From: a virus
Strand: one strand, 5' to 3'
Length of the DNA: 37,983 bases
IMG/VR virus record: IMGVR_UViG_3300041409_000253
Coordinates: 1 to 37,983 of that record
Of the stretch, positions 3,838 to 35,976 are shown piece by piece. Position 1 is the stretch's first letter, and the number at the start of each line of letters is the position of its first letter. A program made the translations under genes and the position numbers. The notes beneath the pieces were generated by a model that made no database searches, had not been told where the DNA came from, and worked only from the letters and a program-made list of their open reading frames with translations.

Positions 3838-4244
3838 CCATCCAGTATTCGACCGCCGTGCGTAACGCCAAGCTCGATGCCGTCGAAACCATCATTGGTT
3901 CGGCACCGATCATGGAACTGCGCAGCGGCGCGGCCCCGGCTAATCCGGCAACGGCGGCCAGCGGCACCCTGCTCGCGCAAGCCGCCTTGCCGTCGGACTG
4001 GTTGACTGCCGCCGCGGCCGGTGCCAAGGGCAAGAACGGCAGCTGGTCGCTCACGGGCCTGGCCCCGGGCGGCACCATTGGCCACTTTCGCATCTACGAA
4101 TCCGGCAGCCCCTCGGTGTGCCACATGCAGGGCAGCGTTACTGCCACCGGTGGCGGCGGGGACATGACGGTGGATAACACCAGCATCGCGGCTGGCCAGG
4201 CGGTCACCGTCAACAGCTTCACCCTCACCGCCGGCAACGCGTGA
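3834..4244 (+). CDS. Phage head-module protein of unknown function
   Basis: 136 aa. I recognise the type (a small protein beginning with NAVRNAKLDAVE-like sequence, then IGSAP..LR.GAAP) as one recurring in head modules of temperate phages, but it has no assigned function that I know. The C-terminal half is rich in Gly, Thr and Ser with short beta-strand-like stretches, which suggests a beta-sandwich such as a capsid decoration or fibre-like domain; that is inference. It is coupled on both sides, by ATGA to the portal gene and GTGA to the next gene. Confidence 0.75.
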   Translation: MTIQYSTAVRNAKLDAVETIIGSAPIMELRSGAAPANPATAASGTLLAQAALPSDWLTAAAAGAKGKNGSWSLTGLAPGGTIGHFRIYESGSPSVCHMQGSVTATGGGGDMTVDNTSIAAGQAVTVNSFTLTAGNA

Positions 4245-5008
4245 GGGCCAATAGCGGGCTGGTCCAGCTGCCCAGCGGGCTGCTGGTCTCGCAGAAAAGC
4301 TGGATCGACGCGCAGGAGCGCGCGGGCATTCCCCGGCGCGTGGCCATCGCCAATGCGGTCCAGGCCACGCTGTCCAATGACAGCATCGTGGTCACCCCGG
4401 GCAGCGGGGCCACGGTCGCCACCCATGCGGTGAGCGGCAAAGAGCACCAGCTGATGATGAACGCCGACCAGTCCGGCCACATCATCGGGTCCAAGCCCAC
4501 GTTTTTTGCGTTGATCCCGTCGCAGGTGCATGTGGCCGGGGCCAACACCGTGCACTGGGATTTTTTCAACGCGGATGCGGCCTTCATCATCCGCGTGCTG
4601 TCTATCCTGCAGATCCCGAACATCACGACGGCCGTGACCGGCATCGTGTTCGACTGGCTGCTCGAGCGCACCACCGCGGTGGGCACCGGGGGTACGGGCA
4701 TCACGCCGTGGGCGGCCGATACCAGCAACACCGCGCTCGATGCCGACGTCACCTGCCGCTCCAAGCCCACGGGCGGGGCCACGCAGAGCACCGATTTGCG
4801 CAGCTACTCGATCAGCTCGGAAGAAACCAACGCCGCCACCATCCAGATCGCCAGCCAGGGCGGGCTGGAACTGGTGCCCGAGCCGCTGCGCCAGATCAAC
4901 TGGGGCCACGGCATCGTGCTGCGGCAGAACCAGGGCCTGCGCTGCGTGCAGGTGAACAGCTCGAACGCCGGCAACACCGGCTGGCTGATCGGCTTCACGC
5001 AGGAGTGA
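4241..5008 (+). CDS. Phage structural-module protein of unknown function
   Basis: 255 aa, starting at GTG 4241 in a GTGA overlap with the upstream stop. No motif assigns a function. The sequence is rich in small residues and beta-forming segments, with no signal peptide or membrane segment, and it contains conserved-looking aromatic spots (ANTVHWDFFNAD, INWGHGIVLRQNQG). Such a pattern suits a virion surface or minor head protein. The position between portal and protease supports a structural role but does not prove it. It could equally be a receptor-contacting decoration protein made with its neighbours. Confidence 0.75.
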   Translation: MRANSGLVQLPSGLLVSQKSWIDAQERAGIPRRVAIANAVQATLSNDSIVVTPGSGATVATHAVSGKEHQLMMNADQSGHIIGSKPTFFALIPSQVHVAGANTVHWDFFNADAAFIIRVLSILQIPNITTAVTGIVFDWLLERTTAVGTGGTGITPWAADTSNTALDADVTCRSKPTGGATQSTDLRSYSISSEETNAATIQIASQGGLELVPEPLRQINWGHGIVLRQNQGLRCVQVNSSNAGNTGWLIGFTQE

Positions 5009-5009
5009 C

Positions 5010-5648
5010 ATGAGCCTGCTGCTGTTTTACGGCGCGCAGGCCGAGATTGCCGCCGACCTTGCGGTCACCGACGCCGACGACACGCTGGCGGCAGATGCGG
5101 CCCTCACCGTCGCCGGCGCGCTGGCACAGACCGACGCCGACGACAGCCTGTCTGCCACGCTGATCCCCACCCCGGTGACGGCGGATTTGGCCGTGACCGA
5201 AGCCGACGATCTGCTGGCCGCGGCCGCGGCACTTGCCCTGGCGGCGGACAGCGGGTTCACCGAGGCGGGCGACACGCTGGCCGCAGATGCCGCGCTGGCC
5301 ATTGCGTCGGCAGCGTCACTGACCGAAGCCGCTGACACCCTGTCCGCGGCGGCCGTGCTGCTGATCGGCGCGGTGGGCGAAGCGGGCGACATCGGCTTCG
5401 AGCCCGACATTGACGAGGACGACGACACCCTGTCGGCCGCCGCCACCCTGGCGTTGCGGCTGGATCTGGGGTCGGTCGAGCAGGATGACACGCTGGATGC
5501 GCAGGCCGACCTGGAAGGCGACGCCGCCGTGCCGGTCGCCGTGCGCCGGCCGGGCCGGATTACGCGGATCGAGCAGCGGATCGCCGCGGCCGCCGCGGCC
5601 CGGGCCCAGCGCAACCGACAAGCCGTTGTTCTTCACTTGATTCAATAG
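5010..5648 (+). CDS. Acidic protein of degenerate DDTL repeats
   Basis: 212 aa with a good AGGAG ribosome-binding site and a 1-nt gap to the upstream stop. About residues 10-175 consist of roughly seven degenerate repeats, most 21-23 aa, with consensus L..TeADDtLaAdAaLa; clear copies contain TDADDTLAADAAL, TDADDSLSA, TEADDLLAAAAAL, TEAGDTLAADAAL, TEAADTLSAAA and DEDDDTLSAAATL. The body is highly acidic and Ala-rich, while the last ~35 residues are basic (RRPGRITRIEQRI) and could be an anchor. Similar repeats occur in phage structural proteins; the function is unknown. A capsid decoration or scaffold-like role is possible. Confidence 0.72.
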   Translation: MSLLLFYGAQAEIAADLAVTDADDTLAADAALTVAGALAQTDADDSLSATLIPTPVTADLAVTEADDLLAAAAALALAADSGFTEAGDTLAADAALAIASAASLTEAADTLSAAAVLLIGAVGEAGDIGFEPDIDEDDDTLSAAATLALRLDLGSVEQDDTLDAQADLEGDAAVPVAVRRPGRITRIEQRIAAAAAARAQRNRQAVVLHLIQ

Positions 5649-5658
5649 GAGTCCCGCC

Positions 5659-6282
5659 ATGGACAAGAAACCCGCCGACAACGAATTCGAGCGCCGCGCC
5701 TTTGTGATGGATGCGCTCAAGATCGAGGCGCGCGCCGACGCCAAGGAAACCCGCCGCATCGTCGGCCACGCCTCGGTGTTCAACCGCGATGCCGACATCG
5801 GCGGCTGGTTCCTCGAGCGTGTCGCGCCGGGGGCCTTCAAGCGCGCCATTCGCGAGGACGACGTGCGCGCGCTGTTCAACCACGATTCCAACATCGTGCT
5901 GGGGCGCAACAAGGCCGGCACCCTGAAGCTGGCCGAGGACGACGTGGGCCTGGCCATCGACATCGACCCGCCGGATACGCAATGGGCGCGCGACCTGATG
6001 GTCAGCATCGAGCGCGGCGACATCAACCAGATGTCGATTGGCTTTCGGGTGCTCAAACAAGAGTGGGACGAAACCGGCGAGGTCGCCAAGCGCACCTTGC
6101 TCGAGGTCGAGCTGTTCGATGTTTCGCCCGTGACCTTTCCCGCCTTCGTCGAAACCGATGTCGGCCTGCGCAGCCTCGCGGCTTACCGCAAGACGCAATC
6201 GCCGAAAGGGCTCACCGCGCCCGGGCCCGATCTGCGCGCTCTGATCCAGCGATCGCGCGATCGCGGCAACTTTTTAAAGTAG
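5659..6282 (+). CDS. Prohead maturation protease (HK97 gp4-like)
   Basis: 207 aa with a strong AGGAG ribosome-binding site. It is the serine protease packaged in the prohead that removes the N-terminal delta domain of the major capsid protein and then itself. Family landmarks are visible: GHASVFNRD near residue 36, the catalytic-region His in ALFNHD (H75), and the catalytic Ser in NQMSIGF (S126), followed by ELFDVSPVTFPA. Length is normal. It sits directly before the capsid gene, as usual, but is separated from the portal gene by three accessory genes rather than adjacent to it. Confidence 0.94.
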   Translation: MDKKPADNEFERRAFVMDALKIEARADAKETRRIVGHASVFNRDADIGGWFLERVAPGAFKRAIREDDVRALFNHDSNIVLGRNKAGTLKLAEDDVGLAIDIDPPDTQWARDLMVSIERGDINQMSIGFRVLKQEWDETGEVAKRTLLEVELFDVSPVTFPAFVETDVGLRSLAAYRKTQSPKGLTAPGPDLRALIQRSRDRGNFLK

Positions 6283-6305
6283 CACCCGCTGTACCGCCCG
6301 TAACG

Positions 6306-6328
6306 GCCGCCACCTGGCGGCTTTTTTT
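6306..6328 (+). terminator. Intrinsic terminator just upstream of capsid gene
   Basis: Stem GCCGCC (6306-6311), loop ACCT, stem GGCGGC (6316-6321), followed by seven T residues (6322-6328). It lies between the protease stop and the capsid ribosome-binding site (AAGGAG at 6333-6338). No promoter is evident after it, so capsid expression must rely on readthrough, antitermination or RNA processing here. Confidence 0.75.
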
Positions 6329-6344
6329 ATTTAAGGAGATTCAT

Positions 6345-7808
6345 ATGAAGCGCAGTTATCTCGTACTGAGCATTGCCCTCGTGGCCGTGCTGGCGGTGCC
6401 GCTGTTCGGACATGCCGCCATTCTCGACCCGTCGTTCCTGATGCCCGACAACCTGGTGCTGCTCGGCCAGTACGTCGTCACGGCCGGCGCTGCGGCCATG
6501 CCCGCCGACCTGTTCCTGTCCAAGCGCCTGCGCCAGGAGCGTGCTTCGCTGGTCGAGGAAAACCGCAAGGTGCTCGACCGCATCGCCACCGAAAAAGACG
6601 CCGCGCGGGTCAAGGAACTCGAGGCCGAGTGGGACAAGCGCGACCAGGACATCATAAACCAGACCGCCGCCATTGCCCGTGCGGAAAAGCAGGAAGCCCT
6701 GGACTCTGAGCTGAACACCTCCGCCACCGAGCGCCGCAGCGGCCGCGAGGCCCCGGCGTCCAGCGCGCAGACCGAAGCGCAGCATGCCGACGCCAAGGCC
6801 AAGTACAAGCGTGCCTTCTGGGACGGCATGAAATACGGCGTGCAGGCGCTGGACCCCGACGAGCAGTTGCTGCTCACCCGCAACTTCCGCAAGGTCGACG
6901 GCGAGCCGATGAGCACCGGCGGGCGTGAAGTGCGCGCCATGTCCAGCACCAACGCGGCGGGCGGTTACACCATCCCCGAGGGGTTCTACAACGAGCTGCA
7001 GGGCAACATGCTGCACTTCGGCGGGGTGCGCGAACTGGCCCGCATCTGGACTACCCCCACGGGTAACTCCGTGCCGGTGCCGACCGTGGATGACACCGGC
7101 AACGAAGCGGCGATCGTGGGCGAAGGCAGCGCGCTGTCGAGCCCGCAGGACCCGACCTTCGGCGTGGTCACCTTCGGGGCGTTTACCTACCGCACCCTGT
7201 GCCTGGTGCCGCTGGAACTGCTGCAGGATTCCGCGTTCGACCTCGAAGCCTGGGTGCGCAGCTGGATCGCCGAACGGATCGCGCGTGGTACCAACCGCCA
7301 CTTCACCACCGGCAACGGCAGCACCCAGCCCAACGGCGTGATCCCGGCATCCTCCAGCGGTGTCACCGCTGCGTCGGCCACCTCGGTCAGCTACGCCGAC
7401 CTGGTGGACCTGGAGCACTCGGTCGATCCGGCCTATCGTCGCAGCCCGCAGGCCGGCTTCATGATGGCCGACGGCACCATCAAGGTGCTGAAGAAACTGG
7501 TGGACCTGGACAGCCGCCCGATCTGGGCGCCGGGCATTGCCGTGCGCGAGCCGGACACCATCCTGGGCTACAAGTACGCCATCAACCAGCACATGGCCGC
7601 GGTGGCCGCTTCCAACAAGTCCATCGCCTTCGGCGACTGGAGCAAGTACTGGATTCGGGATGTGTCCGGCATGCTGCTGATCCGCGCCAACGAGCTGCAC
7701 ATCGCCAATGGCCAGATCGGGTTCTACGCCTTCAGCCGCCACGATGGCGACATCGTCGATGCGGGCACCGATCCGATCAAGCACCTGACCCACCCGAGCC
7801 CGAACTAA
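6345..7808 (+). CDS. Major capsid protein (HK97 fold) with hydrophobic N-terminus
   Basis: 487 aa from ATG 6345, which has a near-perfect AAGGAG ribosome-binding site 6 nt upstream. Residues about 55-140 form a charged coiled-coil delta-domain-like segment (LRQERASLVEENRKV onward), and residues ~160-487 match the HK97 capsid fold, entered through STNAAGGYTIPEGF. Oddly, residues 1-25 look like a secretion signal (MKRSYLV, hydrophobic core, FGHAA) followed by a second hydrophobic stretch. An internal ATG at 6498 would give a conventional start but has no good ribosome-binding site. Strong terminators flank the gene on both sides. Confidence 0.92.
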   Translation: MKRSYLVLSIALVAVLAVPLFGHAAILDPSFLMPDNLVLLGQYVVTAGAAAMPADLFLSKRLRQERASLVEENRKVLDRIATEKDAARVKELEAEWDKRDQDIINQTAAIARAEKQEALDSELNTSATERRSGREAPASSAQTEAQHADAKAKYKRAFWDGMKYGVQALDPDEQLLLTRNFRKVDGEPMSTGGREVRAMSSTNAAGGYTIPEGFYNELQGNMLHFGGVRELARIWTTPTGNSVPVPTVDDTGNEAAIVGEGSALSSPQDPTFGVVTFGAFTYRTLCLVPLELLQDSAFDLEAWVRSWIAERIARGTNRHFTTGNGSTQPNGVIPASSSGVTAASATSVSYADLVDLEHSVDPAYRRSPQAGFMMADGTIKVLKKLVDLDSRPIWAPGIAVREPDTILGYKYAINQHMAAVAASNKSIAFGDWSKYWIRDVSGMLLIRANELHIANGQIGFYAFSRHDGDIVDAGTDPIKHLTHPSPN

Positions 7809-7828
7809 CCAGCACTAAGGGCACGACG

Positions 7829-7861
7829 GGCCCGCCGAATGAAAGCGGCGGGCCTTTTTTT
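7829..7861 (+). terminator. Strong intrinsic terminator after capsid gene
   Basis: Nine-bp perfect stem GGCCCGCCG (7829-7837) with CGGCGGGCC (7846-7854), an 8-nt loop and seven T residues (7855-7861). It follows the capsid stop by about 20 nt. Downstream genes read in the same direction and show no obvious promoter, so termination here is presumably partial or suppressed during late expression. Confidence 0.85.
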
Positions 7862-7898
7862 GAGCGCATCCACCGGTGCGTTCAAACAAAGGAGTCCC

Positions 7899-8099
7899 AT
7901 GAAAATCAAATTCACCGAACCCGTGGCCGGCGCGCGCTTTGCCTACCGCAAGGGGCAGGTGCGCGATCTGCCCCCGGGCGTGGCCAAGGAATTCATCCGG
8001 CTACGCCAGGCGGTGAAGGCGCCCATCGAGGCGGCCGTCACCGGTGCGCCCGAGCAGGCCGTGTCCCGCCCGAACCGCCTGCAGCGTCTGTTTAACTGA
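7899..8099 (+). CDS. Small basic protein of unknown function
   Basis: 66 aa from ATG 7899, chosen because AAAGGAG lies 5 nt upstream; an earlier in-frame ATG at 7839 falls inside the terminator hairpin and is unlikely. The protein is basic and has no recognised motif. Position between capsid and connector genes is one often used for small head-completion or decoration proteins. Its stop overlaps the next start (TGATG), so it is probably coupled to the connector gene. Function cannot be stated. Confidence 0.65.
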   Translation: MKIKFTEPVAGARFAYRKGQVRDLPPGVAKEFIRLRQAVKAPIEAAVTGAPEQAVSRPNRLQRLFN

Positions 8100-8728
8100 T
8101 GGTCTACAGCCTCACCGTCAAGACCGCCGCCGTCGCCGAGCCGGTCACCTTGGCCGAGGCCAAGGACCATTGCCGCATCCTCGACGACGTCACCGACCAG
8201 GATGCGTTGATCAGCGCGCTGATCGTCGCCGCGCGCGAGTGGTGCGAGAACTTCACCCGCCGCTCATTCGTGCGCCGCACCTACGAAATGCGCCTGGATA
8301 ATTGGTTTGGGGGCGACCGGTGCCGTGAGATTCTGCTGCCCCGCGGCCCGGTGTCGAGCGTCACCCACGTCAAGTACACCGACAGCGCCGGCGCACTCGC
8401 CACCCTGGCGGCCGACCAGTACCAGACCGGGCTCTACGACATGCCCGCGCGCATCGTGCCCGCCTTTGGCGTGGTCTGGCCCACGGTGAAGCCCGGCGCC
8501 GTGGATGCGGTGCTGATCGAATACGTCGCCGGCTACGCGCCCTCATCGGACAGCCCCACCGATCATGCCGCGAACGTGCCGGCCTCGGTCAAGGCGGCGA
8601 TGAAGCTGATCGTGGGCCACCTCTACGAGCAACGCGAACTGTCCGCCAACTCGGCGATTTTCGAGGTGCCCTTCGCCGTCAAGGCGCTGCTGGCACCGTT
8701 CGAGGTGCGCGACTACCGGCTGGAATGA
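8099..8728 (+). CDS. Head-tail connector (gp6-like, phiE125 gp8 type)
   Basis: 209 aa. These proteins form a ring below the portal that closes the filled head and receives the tail. Diagnostic features are the N-terminal VTLAEAKDHCRI helix, the LISALIVAAREWCENFTRRSF helix region, the ILLPRGPVSSVTHVKYTD strand and the C-terminal ASVKAAMKLIVGHLYEQRE helix, which fit the gp6-like connector family. Length is typical. Starts in a 1-nt TGATG overlap and ends in an ATGA overlap with the first gene of the carbohydrate block, so that block is read from the same message. Confidence 0.9.
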   Translation: MVYSLTVKTAAVAEPVTLAEAKDHCRILDDVTDQDALISALIVAAREWCENFTRRSFVRRTYEMRLDNWFGGDRCREILLPRGPVSSVTHVKYTDSAGALATLAADQYQTGLYDMPARIVPAFGVVWPTVKPGAVDAVLIEYVAGYAPSSDSPTDHAANVPASVKAAMKLIVGHLYEQRELSANSAIFEVPFAVKALLAPFEVRDYRLE

Positions 8729-9429
8729 AGCCGGTCTACTGGCCGGTGCCGCGGCTGTGGCCGGGCGAAACCGTGGTGCTCATCGGCGGCGGGCCCAGTC
8801 TCACGCCGGCGCAGGTCAATGCCTGCAAGCATCGCGCGCGGGTCATCGCCATCAATGATGCGCTGCGCCTGGCCCCGTGGTGCGACGTGCACTACTTCTG
8901 CGACGACCGCTGGTGGCGCTGGCACCACCGCAGCGACTGGTACAAGGCCTACACGGGGCTGCGCATCACCCTGGAAAACCTGCACCTGGCCAAGGAAGAC
9001 CCGACGCTCAAAAGCGTGCAGAACGTCGGCCGGCCCGATGCGCCGAAGCAGCCCACTGAGGCCTTGTGTAGCGAGCCCACCGGCGTGATGCCGGGGCGCA
9101 ACAGCGGGTACCAGTGCATCAACCTGGCCGTGCACCTGGGGGCAAAGCGGATCCTGCTGCTGGGTTTCGACATGAAGGGCGTGCTCGCCGGGCGCAGCGT
9201 GCGCACCCACTGGTTCGGCAAGCATCCGGACCCGACGGCGGATTCGGTGTATGCCGAGTTCCTGCAGCAGTTCCCGAAGCTGGTGAAGCCGCTGGCGGCC
9301 CTGGGCGTGGACGTCATCAACTGCAGTCCGGATTCCGCCCTGGGCTGCTTTAAAAAAACAACGATCGAAGAGGCACTCGATGCACCGCGCGTATTGCATG
9401 ATCCGGGCGCAGCCGCATTATCGGCGTGA
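8725..9429 (+). CDS. DUF115/Maf-like or GT42-like glycosyltransferase candidate
   Basis: 234 aa, first gene of the carbohydrate block, coupled by ATGA to the connector gene. The N-terminus has a nucleotide-binding-type loop, VLIGGGPSL (residues 18-26), then VIAINDALRLAPWCDVHYFCDD, and later GYQCINLAVHLGAKRILLLGFDM. This arrangement is seen in DUF115/Maf-type proteins and sialyltransferase-like folds, which suggests transfer or handling of a nucleotide-activated sugar, perhaps a nonulosonic acid. That is inference; similar phage proteins usually carry no defined function. No signal peptide or membrane segment, so it should act in the cytoplasm. Confidence 0.7.
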   Translation: MKPVYWPVPRLWPGETVVLIGGGPSLTPAQVNACKHRARVIAINDALRLAPWCDVHYFCDDRWWRWHHRSDWYKAYTGLRITLENLHLAKEDPTLKSVQNVGRPDAPKQPTEALCSEPTGVMPGRNSGYQCINLAVHLGAKRILLLGFDMKGVLAGRSVRTHWFGKHPDPTADSVYAEFLQQFPKLVKPLAALGVDVINCSPDSALGCFKKTTIEEALDAPRVLHDPGAAALSA

Positions 9430-10189
9430 CGCCTTTGTCAACGGACTCACCGCCGCCGGCTGGAAGGTAGAGAGCGTCTATCCGACCGCGAAGCCCGGGC
9501 CAGGTGACGTGCTGGTGATCTGGAACCGCTACGGCGAAGGCGAGGCCGTGGCCGACAAGTGGGAAAAGTTAGGCGGACTGGTGTTCGTCGCCGAGAACGG
9601 CTATGTCGGCCTCGATGCCGCCGGCGTGCAGTACTACGCGCTGTCGATTTCGCAGCACAACGGCGCCGGGCCCATCCCCACCGGCGATGGGTCCCGCTGG
9701 GAAAAACTCGGCATCGAAGTCAAGCCCTGGCGCACGGACGGCCACGCCCTGGTCATCCGCGGCCAGCGCGGCATCGGCAGCCGCCTGATGGCAAGCCCGC
9801 CGGATTGGCACAAGCGCGTGGGCGCGCACCTCGCCAAGCTCGCCGCGCGCAAGGTGGTGGTGCTGGACCACCCCGGCAAGCCGGCCTGCGACCCGGAAGT
9901 CGTCGCCTGGCTGTGCAAGAATTTCGAGCAGGCCCACGCCTGCCTGGTGTGGAGTTCCGGGGCCGCGATCCGCGCCCTGATCGAGGGGGTGCCCGCGTTC
10001 TACGCCGCCCCGCACTGGATCTGCGAAGGCGCGGCCTTGAAGTGGGGCGGGTACCCGGAAACGCCCCGGCGCGACGATGCGGCGCGCCTGGCGGCCCTGC
10101 AGCGCATGGCCTGGGGCCAGTGGACCATCGACGAGATCACCACCGGCGAGCCCTTCGTGCGGCTGCGCGAGCTGAAGGCGGCCGCATGA
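9380..10189 (+). CDS. Putative GT-B-like glycosyltransferase, paralogue of next gene
   Basis: 269 aa from ATG 9380 (GAAGAGG upstream), overlapping the previous gene by 50 nt; an ATG at 9398 is the alternative. The C-terminal half carries VWSSGAAIRALIEGVPAFYA and then GQWTIDEITTGEPF, closely matched in the following gene (YSSGCAVTAILEGVPAFV and NQWTLDEMRSG). A small-residue motif before an E-G-V-P turn is typical of the nucleotide-sugar half of GT-B enzymes such as capsule-type transferases, so a transferase role is plausible but not certain. No export signal. It probably arose with its neighbour by duplication. Confidence 0.68.
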   Translation: MHRAYCMIRAQPHYRRDAFVNGLTAAGWKVESVYPTAKPGPGDVLVIWNRYGEGEAVADKWEKLGGLVFVAENGYVGLDAAGVQYYALSISQHNGAGPIPTGDGSRWEKLGIEVKPWRTDGHALVIRGQRGIGSRLMASPPDWHKRVGAHLAKLAARKVVVLDHPGKPACDPEVVAWLCKNFEQAHACLVWSSGAAIRALIEGVPAFYAAPHWICEGAALKWGGYPETPRRDDAARLAALQRMAWGQWTIDEITTGEPFVRLRELKAAA

Positions 10190-10989
10190 TCGTCGGCTAT
10201 CCCACCCCCGGCAAGGGCAAGGCGCGCGTGATTCTGGATGCGTTCTGCGCCGGCGCCGGCGGCCGGGTGGCCGAGGCCATCCCGCCGCAGTTGCACGATG
10301 GCGCCGCCGCGTTCTACGGCATCACCGAGGCCACCCGGCACCTGTGGGAGCAAGCCAGGGCCGAAGGCCGCGACTGGGTGTATCTGGACAACGCCTATTT
10401 CGACGGCTGCCGCCAGCCGCCGCTGATCAATGGCTACTTTCGGGCGACGTTCAACCGGCTGCAGCACCCCGGCACCGGGGTGTCCGATGGCCAGCGCCTG
10501 GCGCAGTTGATCAAGGCCGGGCTGGTGCAGGAACCCAGGCCCTGGCGTTTCACGGGCGCCCACATCGTGGTGGCGCCGCAGTCGGCGCAGTTCATGAAAA
10601 CCGTCGCCGGCTACGCGGGCAACTGGGTGGAAGACATCCACAAGGCCATCCGTGCCGTCACCACCCGGCAGATCACCTGCCGCCCGTGGACGGCGGACAA
10701 GGTCGAGCAATACCGGCAACTGAAGCTCGACCTGCGCCAGGCGCGCGCGGTGGTCACGTATTCCAGCGGTTGCGCGGTGACGGCGATTCTCGAAGGCGTG
10801 CCCGCGTTCGTGATGGGCCAGGACGCGATTTCGCGGCCGGTTGCCTTTACGGATCTGCGGTACATCGAAAAAGGCCCGCCGCCGCAGGCGCAATGCCTGC
10901 GCCGTCCGTGGATGGAAGTCGTTGCCGATAACCAGTGGACCCTGGACGAAATGCGCAGCGGCCTGTGCTGGAACATGCTCAATGCCTAA
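10186..10989 (+). CDS. Putative GT-B-like glycosyltransferase, paralogue of previous gene
   Basis: 267 aa, ATGA-coupled to the gene before. The N-terminal half differs from its neighbour (GYPTPGKGKARVILDAFCAGAGG, then WVYLDNAYF), while the C-terminal half shares the SSGxA..A..EGVPAF and QWTxDE motifs, so the pair is paralogous in the second domain. I infer a GT-B-like transferase or a related sugar-binding protein of unknown substrate. The C-terminus overlaps the methyltransferase gene by 8 nt. Nothing suggests membrane attachment. Confidence 0.68.
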   Translation: MIVGYPTPGKGKARVILDAFCAGAGGRVAEAIPPQLHDGAAAFYGITEATRHLWEQARAEGRDWVYLDNAYFDGCRQPPLINGYFRATFNRLQHPGTGVSDGQRLAQLIKAGLVQEPRPWRFTGAHIVVAPQSAQFMKTVAGYAGNWVEDIHKAIRAVTTRQITCRPWTADKVEQYRQLKLDLRQARAVVTYSSGCAVTAILEGVPAFVMGQDAISRPVAFTDLRYIEKGPPPQAQCLRRPWMEVVADNQWTLDEMRSGLCWNMLNA

Positions 10990-11566
10990 CGGCTGGTTCG
11001 CGATCGAGGGCATGCAGCACGGCGCCCGCAGCGTCGAGGAACAACTGCAGGGCCTGGCCCCGGCGCTGGCCGTGGCCAGCGGCAAGACCGTCTATGACTT
11101 CGGCAGTGCCGAAGGGCTGATCGCGCTGGAGTTCGTCAAGTTCGGCGCCGCCTCGGTGCGCGGCTTCGACAACAACGCCGTGTTCCTGCATGCCGCCCAC
11201 CAGGTGCGTGCGCGGCTGCCAGCCGCGCAACAGGGCCGGGTCCGTTTCGAGCCCTGCGACCTGCGCGAGACTGGCGCGATTCGGCAATTGCCGGCGCGCG
11301 ACCTGGTGCTGGCCCTGGCCATCCTGCACAAGCTGGCCGACCCGGAGGCCTCGGCGCGCGCCATGGCGGCGCTGGCGCGCGAGCGCCTGGTGGTGCGCCT
11401 GCCGCTGGGTTCCGAAGGGGTGGTCCAGTACAAGCACGGCAAGGCGCGCTGCGATCTGCGCGCGGTGCTGCCCGAATGCGGGCTCACCCTTGAGCAAACC
11501 CTGCCCGGCCCGCGTGGCGAATGGGTGCAACACTGGATTCGAAAAGACTTGGTTGGAAACCCATGA
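10982..11566 (+). CDS. Class I SAM-dependent methyltransferase
   Basis: 194 aa from ATG 10982, which overlaps the upstream stop by 8 nt; upstream in-frame starts would run deep into the previous gene. The SAM-binding motif I is VYDFGSAEGLIAL (residues 37-49), followed by an acidic strand end, VRGFDN, and later RDLVLALAILHKLAD at motif IV. The substrate cannot be predicted; its place among glycosyltransferases suggests methylation of a sugar or a carrier-linked glycan. Length is short but complete for a minimal Rossmann methyltransferase. Confidence 0.8.
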   Translation: MPNGWFAIEGMQHGARSVEEQLQGLAPALAVASGKTVYDFGSAEGLIALEFVKFGAASVRGFDNNAVFLHAAHQVRARLPAAQQGRVRFEPCDLRETGAIRQLPARDLVLALAILHKLADPEASARAMAALARERLVVRLPLGSEGVVQYKHGKARCDLRAVLPECGLTLEQTLPGPRGEWVQHWIRKDLVGNP

Positions 11567-12105
11567 CCGCGCTGCTCCCGCACACCGGCCCGCGCAAGCG
11601 CCTGTTCGGCAAGGCCGCCGGCTGGCTGCACCAGGTCGACATCCTGCTCGATGTCGGCGCCGGCATCCGCCCGCAGGCCCTGGTGCCCTGCAGCCGCCAT
11701 ATTTGCGCCGAGCCCCATGGCGAATATGCCGATGTGCTGGCGGCGCACGGGTTCGAAGTCATCCGCGCGCGGGCCACGGAAGCGCTGGCCCGCATCGACC
11801 GGGTGGACACCATCGTCGCCCTGGACGTGATCGAGCACATGGAGCGCGACGAGGGCGAGGCCTTCATCAAAGCGGCGGTGGCCAAGGCGCGCCACCAGGT
11901 GGTGATTTTCACGCCGCTGGGCTTCATGCCGCAGGACGGCGGGGATGCGGCCGACCCCTGGGGGCTGCAGGGCCAGCACTGGCAGGCGCACCGCTCCGGC
12001 TGGACCCCGGCCGATTTTCCCGGCTGGCGTTGCCTGATCGGCAAGGACTTCCACAAAAAGCATAACCACGGCGCGTTTTTCGCCATCCATACCCGGAAGA
12101 CATGA
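11563..12105 (+). CDS. Class I SAM-dependent methyltransferase
   Basis: 180 aa from ATG 11563 in an ATGA overlap; an ATG at 11521 would add 14 residues but overlap more. Motif I is ILLDVGAGIRPQ (27-38), and VDTIVALDVIEHMERDE (81-97) is the typical motif IV/post-IV of UbiE-like methyltransferases acting on small molecules or glycans. The C-terminus ends in a basic HKKHNHG stretch. It forms a pair with the upstream methyltransferase but the two are not close in sequence. The substrate is unknown; context suggests a sugar moiety. Confidence 0.82.
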   Translation: MTALLPHTGPRKRLFGKAAGWLHQVDILLDVGAGIRPQALVPCSRHICAEPHGEYADVLAAHGFEVIRARATEALARIDRVDTIVALDVIEHMERDEGEAFIKAAVAKARHQVVIFTPLGFMPQDGGDAADPWGLQGQHWQAHRSGWTPADFPGWRCLIGKDFHKKHNHGAFFAIHTRKT

Positions 12106-13145
12106 ACGCCTTCTCCAGCCTCAAAGCCGCGTGGCACATCGAGCGCATCGCCGATCTGCGCGCCGGGCGCGACGTGGCGCCCACGCACGTGCAGCTGATC
12201 ATTTCCGACCTGTGCAACCAGGATTGCCACTTCTGCGCCTACCGCATGGAAGGCGGGTTTTCCACGGCCAACTTCGCCGATGAACAGGGCAACAAAAACC
12301 CCAAGCGCTTCATCCCCACCGCCAAGGCGCTGGAGATCCTGGACGACTGCGCCGCGGCCGGGGTGGGGGCGATCGAGTTCACCGGCGGGGGCGAGCCCAC
12401 CGTGCACCCGGAGTGGGAGCGCATCATCGGCCATGCCCAGGCGCTGGGCATGCAGACCGGGCTGGTCACCAACGGCGTGCGCCTGAAAGACCAGCCGGTG
12501 CTGGCCAAACTCACCTGGCTGCGCATCAGCCTCGATGCTGGCACGCCCGAGACCTACCAGCGCATCCGCCGCAGCCACGCCTGGCCGCAGGTGATGCGCG
12601 CGCTCGAAGCCGCCGGCAAGCTGCAAGGGCCGTTGGTCGGGGTCGGGTTCGTCGTCACCCGCGAGAACGCCGACGAGCTGGCGCAGTGCGCGGCCCTGGT
12701 CAAGGCTGCCGGCATCCCGTACCTGCGCGTCAGTGCCATGTTCAGCGAGCAGGGCGCAGAGTACTACAGCGGCCCCTGGCTCATCACCATCAACGCCCAG
12801 CGCGCCGAGGCCGCCGCGCTGCAGGATGCCCGCTTCAAGGTGGTGGATTTTTTCAGTGCCCGGGTCGAAGACCTGGAAAAACAGGCGCCGGATTATTCGT
12901 TCTGCGGCTACCAGCAGTTCGTGGTCTACATCGGCGGCGACCAGAAGGTCTACACCTGCTGCACCAACGCCTACACCCCGCACGGCGAGATCGGCGACTT
13001 GAAGCAGCAGCGCTTCGCCGATTGGCTGAAGACCACGCGGCGCTTCGATTTCGATGCGAGATCCTGCCACCACTGCCAGTTCAACGATCGCAACAAGGTC
13101 ATCGGCTACATGGTCGGCAAGCCCGAGCACGTCGACTTCGTATGA
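12102..13145 (+). CDS. Radical SAM enzyme with C-terminal cysteines (SPASM/twitch-like)
   Basis: 347 aa, ATGA-coupled on both sides. The [4Fe-4S]-binding CxxxCxxC motif is CNQDCHFC (C38, C42, C45), followed by the SAM-contact strand GAIEFTGGGEPTVHP. The C-terminal part contains further cysteines (FCGYQQF, then VYTCCTNAY, then SCHHCQF) that could bind an auxiliary cluster, as in SPASM/twitch proteins. The enzyme would generate a 5'-deoxyadenosyl radical to modify a sugar, peptide or nucleoside; which one is unknown. Placement between methyltransferases and glycosyltransferases favours a glycan or a glycosylated protein side chain. Confidence 0.9.
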   Translation: MNAFSSLKAAWHIERIADLRAGRDVAPTHVQLIISDLCNQDCHFCAYRMEGGFSTANFADEQGNKNPKRFIPTAKALEILDDCAAAGVGAIEFTGGGEPTVHPEWERIIGHAQALGMQTGLVTNGVRLKDQPVLAKLTWLRISLDAGTPETYQRIRRSHAWPQVMRALEAAGKLQGPLVGVGFVVTRENADELAQCAALVKAAGIPYLRVSAMFSEQGAEYYSGPWLITINAQRAEAAALQDARFKVVDFFSARVEDLEKQAPDYSFCGYQQFVVYIGGDQKVYTCCTNAYTPHGEIGDLKQQRFADWLKTTRRFDFDARSCHHCQFNDRNKVIGYMVGKPEHVDFV

Positions 13146-13831
13146 AGCCGTTCGTATCCCTGATCCTGCCGTATTGGCAGCGGCCGGCAGCGGTGGAAAA
13201 AGCGCTCGTCACCCTGAAGCCGGAGCTCGAACGGATACAACTGGAAATCATCGTTGTCGATGACGGCTCGCCGATGCCATTTGTCAGGCCGCCGGAGTGG
13301 TCAGACATCGAGGTGGTGCGGCTGCCTCTTAAGGATCGTCCGCTGAACCCTTGCGTGCCGATCAATCGTGGCGTGGAAGTCGCGCGGGGAGAATACATCG
13401 CACTGTCCTGCGCCGAGATTTTGCACAGCCAGGGCCCGGTTCTGGACAAGCTGCTGTGGCCGGTGGAGCACTACGGTAGTGAGCTATACGTCACGGCTGG
13501 CTGCTGGTCGCCGGATGAAAAGCGCTGGCATGCGCACTCCACTGTGCCGCCGATGGCCGATGATTTCCAGTTACCGATCGGGTCGCACTTCCACTTCATG
13601 TCGATGATGCACCGCTCGCTGTGGGACAAGGCGGGGGGCTTCGATGAGGAATACCGCGAGGGCGCCGGCTACGAAGACGCCGATTTCCTCATGCGCTTGC
13701 AACGAGTCGGTGCCAAGTTTCTGTTGCGTGACGACGTGGTCGTGGAGCATCCGCGTGCCGGCACGCGGGCCGCGTGGACGCGCGCCATGCACAAGCGCAA
13801 TGCCGAACTGTTCCGGAGCAAGTGGTGCTGA
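13142..13831 (+). CDS. Family 2-like glycosyltransferase
   Basis: 229 aa, ATGA-coupled to the radical-SAM gene. The N-terminus VSLILPYWQRP, the nucleotide-binding VVDDGSP (38-44) and the acceptor-side motif GFDEEYREGAGYEDADFLMRL are characteristic of GT-A inverting family 2 enzymes. The usual metal-binding DXD after GEYIAL is replaced by SCAEI, so metal use may be altered or supplied by another acidic residue. Base composition is a little less GC-rich than in its neighbours. It is cytoplasmic, with no membrane segment; sugar donor and acceptor are unknown. Confidence 0.85.
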   Translation: MKPFVSLILPYWQRPAAVEKALVTLKPELERIQLEIIVVDDGSPMPFVRPPEWSDIEVVRLPLKDRPLNPCVPINRGVEVARGEYIALSCAEILHSQGPVLDKLLWPVEHYGSELYVTAGCWSPDEKRWHAHSTVPPMADDFQLPIGSHFHFMSMMHRSLWDKAGGFDEEYREGAGYEDADFLMRLQRVGAKFLLRDDVVVEHPRAGTRAAWTRAMHKRNAELFRSKWC

Positions 13832-14451
13832 CCGTCGCCTGTGTCGAGTGGGGCAACTATTGCGGCAAGGGGCGGCGCTACGTCGACAATCTGTTCGCCG
13901 GCGTGCTCCTGAACCTGCACACGCCGTACCGTTTCGTGTGTCTCACCGACGATCCGGACCGCCATGCGGTCGACACCATCCGCCTGACGCCGGGCGCAAC
14001 CGGCTGGTGGAACAAGCTCGAGCTGTTCCGCCCGGGGCTGTTCGAGGGCCGGGTGCTCTATCTCGATCTCGACAACTTCATCGTCGGCAGTCTCGACGCC
14101 CTGGTGCAGCACAAGGGCATCATCCACCTCGAGCAGTGGGGCTGGAAGGTCAACGACTACGGCAGCGGCGTGATGGTTTGGGATGCCGGCGAACATGCCG
14201 AGGCCTGGGAACGCATGAATGACCCACCCATGCCCGCCGCGATGCGCTTTCGTGGCGACCAGGACTGGCTGACCGCGCTCGGCGGCTGGGACGCGCTGCC
14301 GGTGCCGATGGTCTGTTCGTTCAAGTACCACTGCAAGCCCACGCCGCCCGCCGGCGCTGCGGTGGTGTGCTGCCACGGCCCGCGCAAGCCGCATGTGTTG
14401 CACCGCGCCGACCAGGAAGCCTGGCTGCGCCCGCTTTGGCCGGCGGCGTAG
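13825..14451 (+). CDS. GT-A glycosyltransferase with DXD motif
   Basis: 208 aa. I place the start at GTG 13825 because GGAG lies 6 nt upstream and the family-like sequence begins there (LTVACVEWGNYCGKGRRYV); GTG 13822 is the alternative. The metal-binding motif is VLYLDLDNFIVGSL with D81 and D83, and the pattern resembles GT8/glycogenin-like or phage-encoded transferases. A following NDYGSGVMVW segment is typical of the acceptor side. The start overlaps the upstream stop by 7 nt. Substrate is unknown. Confidence 0.8.
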   Translation: MLTVACVEWGNYCGKGRRYVDNLFAGVLLNLHTPYRFVCLTDDPDRHAVDTIRLTPGATGWWNKLELFRPGLFEGRVLYLDLDNFIVGSLDALVQHKGIIHLEQWGWKVNDYGSGVMVWDAGEHAEAWERMNDPPMPAAMRFRGDQDWLTALGGWDALPVPMVCSFKYHCKPTPPAGAAVVCCHGPRKPHVLHRADQEAWLRPLWPAA

Positions 14452-14454
14452 CGC

Positions 14455-15216
14455 GTGGGCTGGGGTGATGAGCTCATGGTCACGGGCCAGGCCCGTGTCC
14501 TGCAGGAACGCGACCCCAGAAAGGTGCGCGTGGTGTACGAGCGGCCGCGCTGGCATGAGGCCTGGGACAACAACCCGCGCATCGCCGGCCGCGACGAGGT
14601 GGGGGATTTTCAGCAGCTGCGGGCGCGTGATGGCTACCGCCGCCCCTACATTGCCGCCAAGGGGGAAACCCAATGGACCTGGCAGGCGTGGGGCCCGCCG
14701 GTGGGGGAGCTGTACTTTAGCCACGCCGAAACCCTGTTCGGCGAAAAGCACGCCGGCCGGGTGATCGTCGAGCCGACCCTCAAGATGGGGGCCAGCCCCA
14801 ACAAGCAATGGCCCTGGCGCAACTGGGAGCAGCTGGTCGCCTGGCTGCGCAAACGCGGCATCAAGCCCGCGCAGCTGGGCACGGTGAACACCCAGCGCGT
14901 GACCGGGGCCGATTTCATCGGCACGGCCAGCATGCGGCAGGCAGCGGCGGTCATCGCCCGCGCCCGCGCCGTGGTGGTGCCAGAGGGCGGCATGCACCAC
15001 GTCGCCGCGGCCACCGGCACGCCGGCGGTGGTGATTTACGGCGGCTACATCGCCCCGGCGGTCACCGGGTATGCCAGCCAGCGCAACGTGTTCATCAACG
15101 ACCCCGCGCACCCGCTGGGCTGCGGCATGCGCGTGCGCTGTCCGCATTGCGTGCAAGCCATGGAACGCATCACGCCCGAGCTCGTGACGGGCCTTCTGGA
15201 GACCTTCTTACAATGA
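14455..15216 (+). CDS. Family 9 (heptosyltransferase-like) glycosyltransferase
   Basis: 253 aa, starting at GTG 14455, 3 nt after the upstream stop. Family landmarks are the N-terminal GWGDELMVTGQAR and the C-terminal VVVPEGGMHHVAAATGTPAVVIYGG, the nucleotide-sugar site of ADP-heptose-type GT-B enzymes. The protein is shorter than LPS heptosyltransferases (about 320-350 aa), with a reduced N-terminal domain. C-terminal cysteines (GCGMRVRCPHC) are notable. A role in building a short glycan is likely; the sugar need not be heptose. Confidence 0.85.
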   Translation: MGWGDELMVTGQARVLQERDPRKVRVVYERPRWHEAWDNNPRIAGRDEVGDFQQLRARDGYRRPYIAAKGETQWTWQAWGPPVGELYFSHAETLFGEKHAGRVIVEPTLKMGASPNKQWPWRNWEQLVAWLRKRGIKPAQLGTVNTQRVTGADFIGTASMRQAAAVIARARAVVVPEGGMHHVAAATGTPAVVIYGGYIAPAVTGYASQRNVFINDPAHPLGCGMRVRCPHCVQAMERITPELVTGLLETFLQ

Positions 15217-15854
15217 AAAATATCGGCGGCGTCTGGCTGCCCGACAATGAGACGCACCTGGTCGAGTGGATGCAGAACCGCAACCAGGTGGTCGACGGCA
15301 AACTCACCTACCAGTACCACAAGCTGGAAGCGGCCCTCAAACACGTCAAGCAATTCCGCGCGGCGATCGACGTCGGCGCCCATTGCGGGCTGTGGAGCAT
15401 GCACCTCGCCAAGCGGTTCGCCATGGTGCACGCCTTCGAGCCGGTGTTCGCGCACCGCGAGTGCTTCCATGTCAATGTCGGCCCCGTCAATGCGTTGCTC
15501 TATGCCGTCGCCCTTGGCGCGCAACACGGCCGGGTGGCGATGCAAACGGCGCCCAGCAGCAGCGGCGACACCACCGTCACTGAGGGCGATGACGTGCCGC
15601 TGATGATGCTGGACGAATACGACTTTCACGAGGTCGACTTCATCAAGTTGGACTGCGAAGGCTACGAGCTGTTCGCCCTCATGGGTGGCGAGCAGACCAT
15701 CCTGCGCAACAAGCCCTGCATCTGCGTCGAACAAAAACCCGGCAAGGCCCGGCAATTCGGACTGGGCGAAACCGATGCCGTGGCGTGGCTGCAGGAACGC
15801 GGTGCCAAGCTGCGCGCCGAGATCGCGGGCGACTACATCCTGTCATGGGACTGA
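15213..15854 (+). CDS. FkbM-type methyltransferase
   Basis: 213 aa, ATGA-coupled to the GT9 gene. SAM motif I is AAIDVGAHCGLWSMHLA (51-67), followed by HAFEPVFAHRECF, and the family signature VDFIKLDCEGYELFAL (141-156). FkbM-type enzymes commonly O-methylate hydroxyl groups on sugars or polyketides. In this setting, terminal methyl capping of a glycan is a reasonable guess. The C-terminus overlaps the next gene by 10 nt. No membrane segment. Confidence 0.9.
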   Translation: MKNIGGVWLPDNETHLVEWMQNRNQVVDGKLTYQYHKLEAALKHVKQFRAAIDVGAHCGLWSMHLAKRFAMVHAFEPVFAHRECFHVNVGPVNALLYAVALGAQHGRVAMQTAPSSSGDTTVTEGDDVPLMMLDEYDFHEVDFIKLDCEGYELFALMGGEQTILRNKPCICVEQKPGKARQFGLGETDAVAWLQERGAKLRAEIAGDYILSWD

Positions 15855-16591
15855 ACGAGCTCGAGGTGTTCATTGGCTGGGACGCGCGCGCGCGCACCGC
15901 CTGGCAGGTCTGCGAGCGCTCCTTGCAGCACCACGCCGCCGACCCGGTGCCGGTGCGCGCCATTGGCCGCAAGATGCTGCAGAACATCGGCGCCTATACC
16001 CGGCTCACCTCGGAAGTCGATGGGAAATTGCTGGACCACCGCAGCAACGAATTCTGCAGCACCGATTTTTCCCTGGCGCGCTTCTGGGTGCCGCAGTTAG
16101 CCGGGCGTGCGGGCTGGGCGCTGTACTGCGACAGCGATTTCCTGTTTCGGGCCGATGTGCGCGAGATCCTGGAACACGCCGACCCGAGATACGCGGTGAT
16201 GGTGGTGCCGCACCAGCACGAGCCAACGGATACCAGCAAGATGAACGCCCAGCAGCAGACCGCCTACTTTCGCAAGAACTGGTCGAGCCTGATGCTGTGG
16301 AACCTGGCGCACGCCGGCTGCCAGCGCTTGAGCCCGCACGACCTGAACACCTGGCACAAGCATGACCTGCACGGCTTTCGCTGGCTGGCGAGCAACGAAA
16401 TCGGGTTTTTGCCGGAGCCGTGGAACTGGCTGGTCGGCGTGAGCCCGACCCTGCCGCCCTCCGAGCCTTACCTGCAGCCGCCGAAAGCGGTGCACTTCAC
16501 CAACGGAACCCCCGACATGAAAGGCTACGAGCGCATGGCGTATGCCGACGAGTGGCGGTCTTACCAGCAGCCCGCGGAGCGTGTGGCATGA
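15845..16591 (+). CDS. GT8-like glycosyltransferase with DXD motif
   Basis: 248 aa from ATG 15845; an earlier in-frame start at 15785 would add 20 non-family residues. The N-terminus LEVFIGWDARARTAWQV and the motif WALYCDSDFLF with D96 and D98 are typical of retaining GT-A transferases related to family 8. Phage and LPS clusters often carry relatives. It is the last enzyme of the block; its stop overlaps the chimeric tail gene as ATGA, so the entire block lies in one coupled message between connector and tail genes. Confidence 0.82.
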   Translation: MGLNELEVFIGWDARARTAWQVCERSLQHHAADPVPVRAIGRKMLQNIGAYTRLTSEVDGKLLDHRSNEFCSTDFSLARFWVPQLAGRAGWALYCDSDFLFRADVREILEHADPRYAVMVVPHQHEPTDTSKMNAQQQTAYFRKNWSSLMLWNLAHAGCQRLSPHDLNTWHKHDLHGFRWLASNEIGFLPEPWNWLVGVSPTLPPSEPYLQPPKAVHFTNGTPDMKGYERMAYADEWRSYQQPAERVA

Positions 16592-17643
16592 GGGCCGGCA
16601 AGCTGCGTCACACCATCACCCTGCAGGAAAAAGCCCACTGGGTGCCGGCCGGGTCGATGCTGCCGGGCAAGGCCGGGGTTTTGCCTGGCGTTGCCAGTAA
16701 CTATTTTTCAACACCGGACAGTGCAGCGCTCGACATCACTGGCGACATCGACATCCGCGCAAAGGTGATGCTGAACGACTGGACGCCCACAGGCAGCCCC
16801 TATATCGTAAGCAAGAACGGCGTGAGTTCGGCTTATCACTTACGCCTGATTGGCGGCACGGGGCAGATCAGGTTTGGCTGGTTCGATGGCTCGACTGCGC
16901 GCACGGCAGATTCGGTTGGCGGCACTGGATTCGCGGATGGATCTACCCACTGGATTCGAGCCACCATGGATGTGGATGCGGCGGGGTCTCCCTCTGAATA
17001 TGCGGTCAAGTTCTACACCAGCGAGGATGGCATCACCTGGACGCAATTGGGGGCCACGAAAACTGGCGCGGGTCCCACCCAACTTAGTGTAGGCACCGCA
17101 GTGCTTGCGGTTGGCATGTTCACGAACGGGACATCTGACCCCCTTGATGGCCACGTTCACTACGCCGACGTCCGCAACGGCATCGACGGCACCGTCGTCG
17201 CCGAGTTCGACCCCTCTGACTGGACGAGCGGCACGACCTGGACCGCCGACACCGGCGAAGTCTGGACGATCAACAGCAGCGGCAGCCCGTCGATCGGCAT
17301 CGTGTCGGTCAGCGATCCAACGGTACAGGGCGCCTCCCAGACTGGAAACAGCCTTGCCACCGAGGGCTGGAAAAACAACGCCACCGGCCTGCTGCTGCCG
17401 GGCGATTACTTCGGGGTGAATGGCGAACTCAAGATCGTCACCGCGCAGGCGGATGCCGACAACTATGGCAACGCTACCCTCAACTTTCGCCCGCCGCTGC
17501 GCTCGTCGCCCGCCGATGGCGCCGTGCTCGACCTGGTGCAACCCACCACCGAGTTCATGCTAACCGGCCCCGACGTCGAGTGGAACGTCAACGAGGGCAA
17601 CCTGTTCGCCGATTTCGTGATCGACGCGGTGGAAGCCTTCTGA
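16588..17643 (+). CDS. Chimeric tail protein: joining-protein start, LamG-like domain, tail domain
   Basis: 351 aa, ATGA-coupled to the block upstream. Three parts are visible. Residues 1-16 (MRAGKLRHTITLQEK) match the first residues of phage head-tail joining proteins of the Phage_H_T_join family, which are usually ~110 aa. Residues ~36-230 look like a concanavalin A/LamG-type beta-sandwich (FSTPDSAALDITGDIDIRAK onward). Residues ~245-351 resemble the C-terminal domain of the tail protein usually encoded after the tape measure (TGLLLPGDYFGV, LNFRPPLRSSP). The middle segment is visibly less GC-rich. It was probably formed by deletion and domain swap. Confidence 0.72.
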   Translation: MRAGKLRHTITLQEKAHWVPAGSMLPGKAGVLPGVASNYFSTPDSAALDITGDIDIRAKVMLNDWTPTGSPYIVSKNGVSSAYHLRLIGGTGQIRFGWFDGSTARTADSVGGTGFADGSTHWIRATMDVDAAGSPSEYAVKFYTSEDGITWTQLGATKTGAGPTQLSVGTAVLAVGMFTNGTSDPLDGHVHYADVRNGIDGTVVAEFDPSDWTSGTTWTADTGEVWTINSSGSPSIGIVSVSDPTVQGASQTGNSLATEGWKNNATGLLLPGDYFGVNGELKIVTAQADADNYGNATLNFRPPLRSSPADGAVLDLVQPTTEFMLTGPDVEWNVNEGNLFADFVIDAVEAF

Positions 17644-35524: not shown

Positions 35525-35976
35525 GCCGGCTTGTTCCCGATGAAAACAAGTTCCACATCGGCGCGCCCGATGGCAAGCACTACTGGCTTACCCCCCCCTG
35601 CTTGCTGGAACAGCTCAACGCGGAATTCCATTTCAACTTCGATCCATGTCCGTACCCGAAGCCCGCCGATTTCGATGGGCTTACGGCGGACTGGGGTTCA
35701 TCGAACTACGTCAATCCGCCATTCGGGTCGATCATGCACAACGGTAAGAAAAAAGGGCCGACCGCGTGGGCGCGCAAGGCCATCGAAGAAAACAAAAAGG
35801 GCAAGCGCGTCGTCCTGGTCTACCCGATCGACAAGTGGGTGCTGATGCTGCTGGCGGCCGGTGCGCAAGTGCGTAATCTCGGCGACGTACGCTGGCATGC
35901 CACCGAGGACGGATCGCAGGGGAAGGGGACCGGTCGACACATTGCGATGTTTTTGCTTGAAGGCCAGTCGCCATGA
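35521..35976 (+). CDS. Phage DNA N-6-adenine methyltransferase (Dam type)
   Basis: 151 aa, ATGA-coupled to dnaB. The family signature is WLTPPCLLEQLN, FNFDPCPYPKPADFDGL and YVNPPFGSIMHN; the NPPF is the catalytic motif of adenine-N6 methyltransferases. This short phage type lacks a separate target-recognition domain. It could protect phage DNA from host restriction or mark replication. It lies between helicase and initiator. Confidence 0.9.
   Translation: MSRLVPDENKFHIGAPDGKHYWLTPPCLLEQLNAEFHFNFDPCPYPKPADFDGLTADWGSSNYVNPPFGSIMHNGKKKGPTAWARKAIEENKKGKRVVLVYPIDKWVLMLLAAGAQVRNLGDVRWHATEDGSQGKGTGRHIAMFLLEGQSP

Follow-up and report, generated by a model that had tools for sequence, protein, structure and literature searches.

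Why should a phage carry, in the middle of its structural operon, eleven genes for putative glycosyltransferases, methyltransferases and a radical S-adenosylmethionine (radical-SAM) enzyme? The question is raised by positions 8725-16591 of the virus record IMGVR_UViG_3300041409_000253, whose 37,983 bases are the whole stretch of DNA analyzed here (the window). Its annotated products include a terminase, portal, capsid, connector and tail tip, along with an integrase, a repressor-like regulator and a DnaB-type helicase; given the virion proteins, the integrase and the regulator, the window most likely derives from a temperate tailed phage. We propose, at roughly even chances, that tailed phages carry this block as a mobile cassette for glycan building, which would be expressed with the late structural genes and probably decorates a virion protein.

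As the initial annotation had described, the block is filled by one-strand genes with short overlaps, namely eleven intact open reading frames, here termed g1 to g11:

8725..9429, plus strand: g1, sialyltransferase/MptE-like (DUF115-related) transferase (phrog_4603, sialyltransferase, E 3.4e-41; PF01973, 2.2e-6, below cut-off)
9380..10189, plus strand: g2, predicted GT-B fold, like transferases of cytidine monophosphate-activated 3-deoxy-D-manno-oct-2-ulosonic acid (CMP-Kdo) (model with predicted local distance difference test, pLDDT, of 80; PDB fold matches)
10186..10989, plus strand: g3, paralog of g2 (about 28% identity by sequence comparison)
10982..11566, plus strand: g4, class I methyltransferase (Pfam methyltransferase models, E ~1e-4)
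11563..12105, plus strand: g5, class I methyltransferase and conserved core member (weak Pfam match, 0.036; neighbor of g6 in many phages)
12102..13145, plus strand: g6, twitch-type radical-SAM enzyme and core gene (PF04055, E 1.1e-21; cysteine pattern; model)
13142..13831, plus strand: g7, family 2 (GT2) glycosyltransferase and core partner of g6 (GT2, E 1e-4 to 1e-5, under the curated cut-off)
13825..14451, plus strand: g8, phage glycosyltransferase (phrog_1962, glycosyltransferase, E 9.3e-20)
14455..15216, plus strand: g9, GT9 heptosyltransferase-family enzyme (PF01075, E 5.6e-10; start possibly at 14476)
15213..15854, plus strand: g10, FkbM-type methyltransferase (PF05050, E 7.4e-12)
15845..16591, plus strand: g11, GT8-like glycosyltransferase (phrog_28018, of unknown function there, E 7.7e-58; PF01501, 4e-4, below cut-off)

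Pfam supports the families first assigned to g6, g9 and g10; the labels of g7 and g11 correspond to matches below the cut-off and that of g5 to a weak one, and family searches by sequence matched none for g2 and g3. PDB sequence searches with g1, g8, g11 and a g2/g3 profile returned nothing useful. Adjacent genes are joined mainly by 4-base-pair (bp) ATGA overlaps or other short ones, the longest being 50 bp (g1/g2) and the sole gap 3 bp (g8/g9). Both ends of the block are likewise coupled to structural genes, by 4-bp overlaps of g1 with the connector gene and of g11 with the gene that follows. Glycosyltransferase and methyltransferase genes within a structural operon are the arrangement by which phage virion-glycosylation cassettes are recognized, and the block displays it. 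Gene content and coupling thus uphold the earlier view of a glycan-building block in the late structural operon that is larger than usual.

Is this assemblage peculiar to one phage? A g6 profile recovered at least 115 viral contigs that encode a radical-SAM protein. Of these, 80 were kept, and the loci analyzed (designated below by L numbers) reduce to 60 at a redundancy threshold of 90%. In 47 of these 60 a g7 relative is found no more than five genes from the radical-SAM gene, directly next to it in 31, and relatives of g5, g8 and g1 occur within the same distance in 23, 17 and 11, respectively. The core, as delineated from these sequences, comprises the radical-SAM gene g6, the GT2 gene g7, the methyltransferase gene g5 and the transferase genes g1 and g8. 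A database check for conserved co-occurrence, suggested in the initial annotation, accordingly finds the core in unrelated phages. In L015 and L018, where the radical-SAM proteins share 61-64% identity with that of the window but the terminase, portal and capsid proteins only 24-36% with theirs, it stands between the capsid and connector genes. Elsewhere it follows the tail-tip gene (L011 and L012), precedes the terminase (L003, L008, L010, L019 and L079), separates the terminase subunits of the T4-like phages L049 and L064, or is found downstream of the capsid gene (L052, L055 and MW202801). Similar blocks stand close to the capsid or connector in L032, L040, L030 and L014. Overall, a structural gene (capsid, connector, terminase, sheath or tail) was recognized within 5 kb in at least 33 of the 60 loci. 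Because insertion sites vary even inside the radical-SAM clade of the window itself (15 rows; Shimodaira-Hasegawa-like approximate likelihood ratio test, SH-aLRT, 99), the cassette moves, and the recurrence of the core in more than 100 other phage sequences suggests that phages probably share a mobile toolkit for an unusual sugar coat, most likely one borne by the particle.

What might the radical-SAM enzyme contribute? Conservation scored over 55 homologous sequences reveals a CX3CX2C cluster motif (C38, C42 and C45, each at least 90% conserved), an invariant GGE motif (96-98) and the invariant auxiliary cysteines C268, C286, C322 and C325, arranged as C-X17-C, a gap and C-X2-C, with C287 also invariant. 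In the twitch layout the one auxiliary cluster corresponds to the first four cysteines of the SPASM set (PMC6231123), and by its cysteine pattern g6 is a twitch-type radical-SAM enzyme with one predicted auxiliary cluster, although the glycine of CX9-15GX4C is absent from its expected place. The full seven-cysteine SPASM motif (CX9-15GX4C-CX2CX5CX3C-C) is not present, as only five invariant cysteines follow the radical-SAM motif; this pattern rules out a full SPASM peptide maturase. In a PDB fold ranking, the g6 model (347 residues, pLDDT 95.6, predicted template-modeling score 0.93) finds BlsE first, then SkfB and, as the third-ranked enzyme, DesII, with SuiB also among the top matches. BlsE and DesII are radical-SAM enzymes working on nucleotide-linked sugars, and SkfB and SuiB modify peptides. 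BlsE is the top PDB sequence match as well; BlsE and DesII are 16-22% identical to g6.

The presence of SkfB and SuiB among these matches bears on an alternative, drawn by analogy with mycofactocin, in which g6 and its partners would modify a side chain of a phage peptide or protein in the manner of ribosomally synthesized and post-translationally modified peptides, with sugars and methyl groups being added later. The NCBIfam mycofactocin models for a radical-SAM protein, a glycosyltransferase and an oligosaccharide methyltransferase do match g6, g7 and g5, respectively, weakly and all far below cut-off. We nevertheless regard this alternative as unlikely: two short helices (8-20) precede the barrel of the g6 model, an N-terminal peptide-recognition (RRE) domain is absent and the 347 residues leave no space for one, the five auxiliary cysteines fall short of the seven of the SPASM set, BlsE is the best match, and no short precursor-peptide gene was found within the block.

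As a separate observation, the [4Fe-4S] cysteine motif is interrupted by an intein-like insert in 4 of the 60 radical-SAM genes from phages; the insert precedes the second cluster cysteine in three of them and the third in one. They are:

L014, 5730-7841: radical-SAM gene with intein-like insert
L086, 10001-11560: radical-SAM gene with intein-like insert
L088, 8795-10972: radical-SAM gene with intein-like insert
L090, 6015-8036: radical-SAM gene with intein-like insert

The radical-SAM family is not restricted to viruses, as a peptide-pattern scan of bacterial genomes with only two weak matches might have suggested: a profile search (E<=1e-30) found relatives of g6 in 13 of the 379 genomes that represented one bacterial phylum. 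In a quick tree, long branches separate the viral forms from two groups of bacterial ones. The operon neighbors of the bacterial relatives encode cytidylyltransferases, NAD-dependent epimerases, SIS isomerases, HAD phosphatases, transketolase subunits, methyltransferases and GT2 enzymes. In three bacterial loci (L115, L116 and L117) a conserved operon places split transketolase subunits, two cytidylyltransferases, an epimerase and a methyltransferase beside the g6 relative, and from its gene content it looks like a nucleotide-sugar pathway not yet assigned.

L096, a locus from a 67-kb viral contig, retains g1, g2 and g3 (35-50% identity) together with g9 and g10 (38% and 56%) in the same order; its center encodes a C-methyltransferase (PF08421, PF08484), a DegT-type aminotransferase (PF01041) and one protein without a family match, and no g6 relative was found in the L096 record. 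C-methyltransferases and DegT aminotransferases are standard nucleotide-sugar tailoring enzymes. Homologs of g1, g2 and g8 are fused in one polypeptide in L014 (3539-5725) and L030 (3587-5575). The exchanged center and these fusions link the genes in one pathway and place g6 in a sugar-tailoring slot. The initial annotation had stated that, with no nucleotide-sugar synthesis genes present, donors must come from the host; in view of the BlsE-like predicted fold of g6, the cellular operons and the aminotransferase and C-methyltransferase of L096, this is better amended to a block that probably tailors at least one sugar itself, with simpler donors supplied by the host.

How would such enzymes act together? 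Judging the donors from fold and family, cytosolic glycosyltransferases would build a short oligosaccharide from host donors, with g1-g3 probably using CMP-activated ulosonic acids (of the Kdo or sialic-acid type), g9 probably using ADP-heptose (ADP, adenosine diphosphate), and g7, g8 and g11 probably adding hexoses from hexose donors. The g6 enzyme would oxidize, decarboxylate or rearrange one sugar, either as a nucleotide sugar or as a bound residue, and g7 would most likely transfer or extend the altered sugar. The products of g4, g5 and g10 may cap the chain with methyl groups, and the glycan would most likely be joined to a virion protein encoded on the same transcript. We favor a virion protein as the target because no membrane segment is predicted in any block protein, because the block is placed among late structural genes, and because the mycobacteriophages offer a precedent: in cluster O, according to PMC11600133 and PMC12619734, which cite Freeman et al. 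2023, glycosyltransferases and an O-methyltransferase are reported to modify capsid and tail-tube proteins. The earlier reading of a virion glycan as the likeliest product is thereby supported, and it is from these features that we infer the attachment.

The main rival, which strikes us as possible if rather doubtful, is that the cassette acts, in late infection or in lysogenic cells, on a host surface polysaccharide (the lipopolysaccharide core or O-chain), whose alteration would keep out superinfecting phages or stop progeny from adsorbing again to debris. In the inner core of Gram-negative lipopolysaccharide, CMP-Kdo is among the CMP-ulosonic donors and ADP-heptose is the heptose donor, and the donors suggested for g2 and g3 (CMP-sugar) and for g9 (GT9) are of these types; the cellular g6 relatives in nucleotide-sugar operons point the same way. 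However, the block encodes no membrane protein, none of its products has a family match to a gtrABC-type flippase or a polyprenol-phosphate glycosyltransferase, and it is translationally coupled to head genes with no separate lysogeny promoter.

Decoration of a virion protein, which we continue to prefer, has several points to its disadvantage. No structural gene was recognized nearby in nearly half of the relatives; some relatives sit in glycosyltransferase-rich islands near UvsX, and one adjoins heptose-synthesis genes, as host-surface modification might lead one to expect. The peptide-modifying SkfB and SuiB rank high among the fold matches of g6, and the authors of a pelagimyophage study infer modification of the host O-chain (PMC7029224). 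Finally, a shared acceptor marker was sought across the cassette-bearing loci and no acceptor was identified. The window does contain, at 5010-5648 in its structural region, a protein of TEADDTLSA-like repeats with evenly spaced Thr/Ser, a candidate glycan acceptor. Neither this protein nor the repeated tail domain described below was found in the other cassette-bearing loci, and we therefore name no acceptor.

Several known systems are comparable. The cluster O mycobacteriophages likewise combine several glycosyltransferase genes in tandem with an O-methyltransferase gene (PMC11600133), whereas three glycosyltransferases and no radical-SAM enzyme are reported for them, as against eleven genes with a conserved radical-SAM core in the window. 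Radical-SAM gene cassettes are mentioned in pelagimyophages (PMC7029224), and Synechococcus phage SynMITS9220M01 has genes for a methyltransferase and a glycosyltransferase next to its radical-SAM relative; unlike that of the window, the cassette in these phages belongs to an island for host recognition or sugars that also contains heptose or deoxysugar genes. Podoviridae sp. ctQWt234 (MW202801) carries radical-SAM, glycosyltransferase and methyltransferase genes close behind its major capsid gene, but differs in its short tail, its extra PhyH dioxygenase and NodB-like genes, and a radical-SAM protein of 26% identity. Phage glycosyltransferase cassettes and virion glycosylation are already known; the radical-SAM variant is uncharacterized, and no paper defining or testing the radical-SAM/GT2 core was found in the literature collection searched.

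As a more tentative extension, it is conceivable that a phage radical-SAM family distinct from its cellular relatives makes a sugar foreign to the host, and that the mobile core (radical-SAM plus GT2) with its swappable tailoring genes enables tailed phages of unrelated kinds to build a virion coat of virus-specific carbohydrate. Virion glycosylation by phage enzymes has so far been reported in a few mycobacteriophages; if our proposal holds, the conservation of a radical-SAM cassette across siphovirus-, podovirus- and T4-like contigs would turn it into a widespread trait with a chemistry of its own and a bearing on adsorption, particle stability and the recognition of phages. A small testable set of enzymes emerges, g6 with g7 and then g5, and the tailoring genes in the radical-SAM slot of L096 make the sugar-tailoring role directly testable.

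The two GT-B-like paralogs require separate comment. The g2 model, obtained with AlphaFold2 on a six-sequence alignment, has 16 PDB matches at E<=0.001, every one being KpsC, KrkA or WbbB, all Kdo transferases. Like these retaining enzymes g2 has the predicted fold and the HP motif; the complete (K/R)XHP CMP-binding motif is present in its L096, L014 and L030 relatives and in neither g3 nor the relative of g3. The nucleophile of retaining Kdo transferases is the Asp of a QXXXD motif (PMC12887879, PMC10148158), and none of the six rows (g2, g3 and relatives) has an Asp at +4; in g2 the corresponding strand ends in Q129-R-G-I-G133. Despite the HP motif, therefore, g2 falls outside the retaining Kdo family by mechanism, and true retaining Kdo transferases (GT99/GT107/GT140) are ruled out for both g2 and g3.

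Is the block truly part of this phage? A second contig, IMGVR_UViG_3300035687_000024 (L002), matches window positions 2102-17233, the entire block included, with zero mismatches and diverges from 17234 onward. There the head-completion gene (PF05521) is intact and is followed by genes for an HK97-gp10-like protein, for tail completion, for the tail tube (PF16460), for a chaperone-like protein and for a tape measure (PF10145); the contig ends inside the second copy of a repeated domain within a distal-tail gene. The genes next to the block are:

8099..8728, plus strand: head-tail connector (adaptor) upstream of the block (phrog_442, head-tail adaptor, E 1.4e-33; 4 bp shared with g1)
16588..17643, plus strand: chimeric gene outside the cassette, joining a head-completion start, the repeated domain and a distal-tail end (identical to L002 up to 17233; C-terminus resembling distal tail protein phrog_1302)

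The repeated domain, which looks LamG/ConA-like by eye and matches no Pfam model, occurs as an insertion in the head-completion protein and again in the distal-tail protein. Its copies (in window 16588-17643 and in L002 14487-15722 and 19537-19938) share 97% DNA identity across a 116-bp overlap, and at the 17233 junction the window assembly switches between them. Since L002 diverges at 17234 into tail genes, the window gene is a head-completion/distal-tail chimera and the tail module, about 5 kb, is absent from the window record; the junction may have arisen by collapse of the assembly or may mark a genuine deletion variant. The absence of tape measure and tail tube might suggest a phage with a short tail or none, but the near-identical L002 carries both genes and so rules this out. 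Hence the initial placement of the block directly between the head-tail connector and tail-tip genes does not stand: the adjoining tail gene is chimeric, and on the sequence of L002 the block lies between the connector and the head-completion gene, with the tail module next.

The faulty or deleted sequence around 17233, just downstream, and gene types like those of bacterial polysaccharide loci might suggest that such a locus was misassembled onto phage DNA, which the initial annotation had named as the finding that would overturn it. We consider this hardly credible. At the contig level, two contigs cross both edges (8725 and 16591) without mismatch and relatives keep the core near the same place; as both contigs span the block, its edges are sound, although their identity indicates that they probably represent one population and are not fully independent. 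Moreover, start-stop overlaps join the block to phage genes, its GC content and GC content at third codon positions (the latter computed in the wrong frame for g3, g5 and g7) are like those of the flanking phage genes, phage and bacterial radical-SAM sequences are separated by long branches, and the core recurs in unrelated phages.

A last alternative, that the enzymes hypermodify phage DNA with sugars and so evade restriction, appears very improbable. Phage glycosyltransferases acting on DNA are known, as cited in PMC12619734. Against this, no hydroxymethyl-base or TET-type gene occurs among the annotated genes of the window, an incomplete record with part of its genes annotated. Moreover, GT9-, Kdo- and FkbM-type enzymes like those of the block are not known to serve in DNA glycosylation. 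Far from the block, in the early region, a DNA methyltransferase gene (phrog_111) is found at 35521-35976 beside the gene for the DnaB-type helicase.

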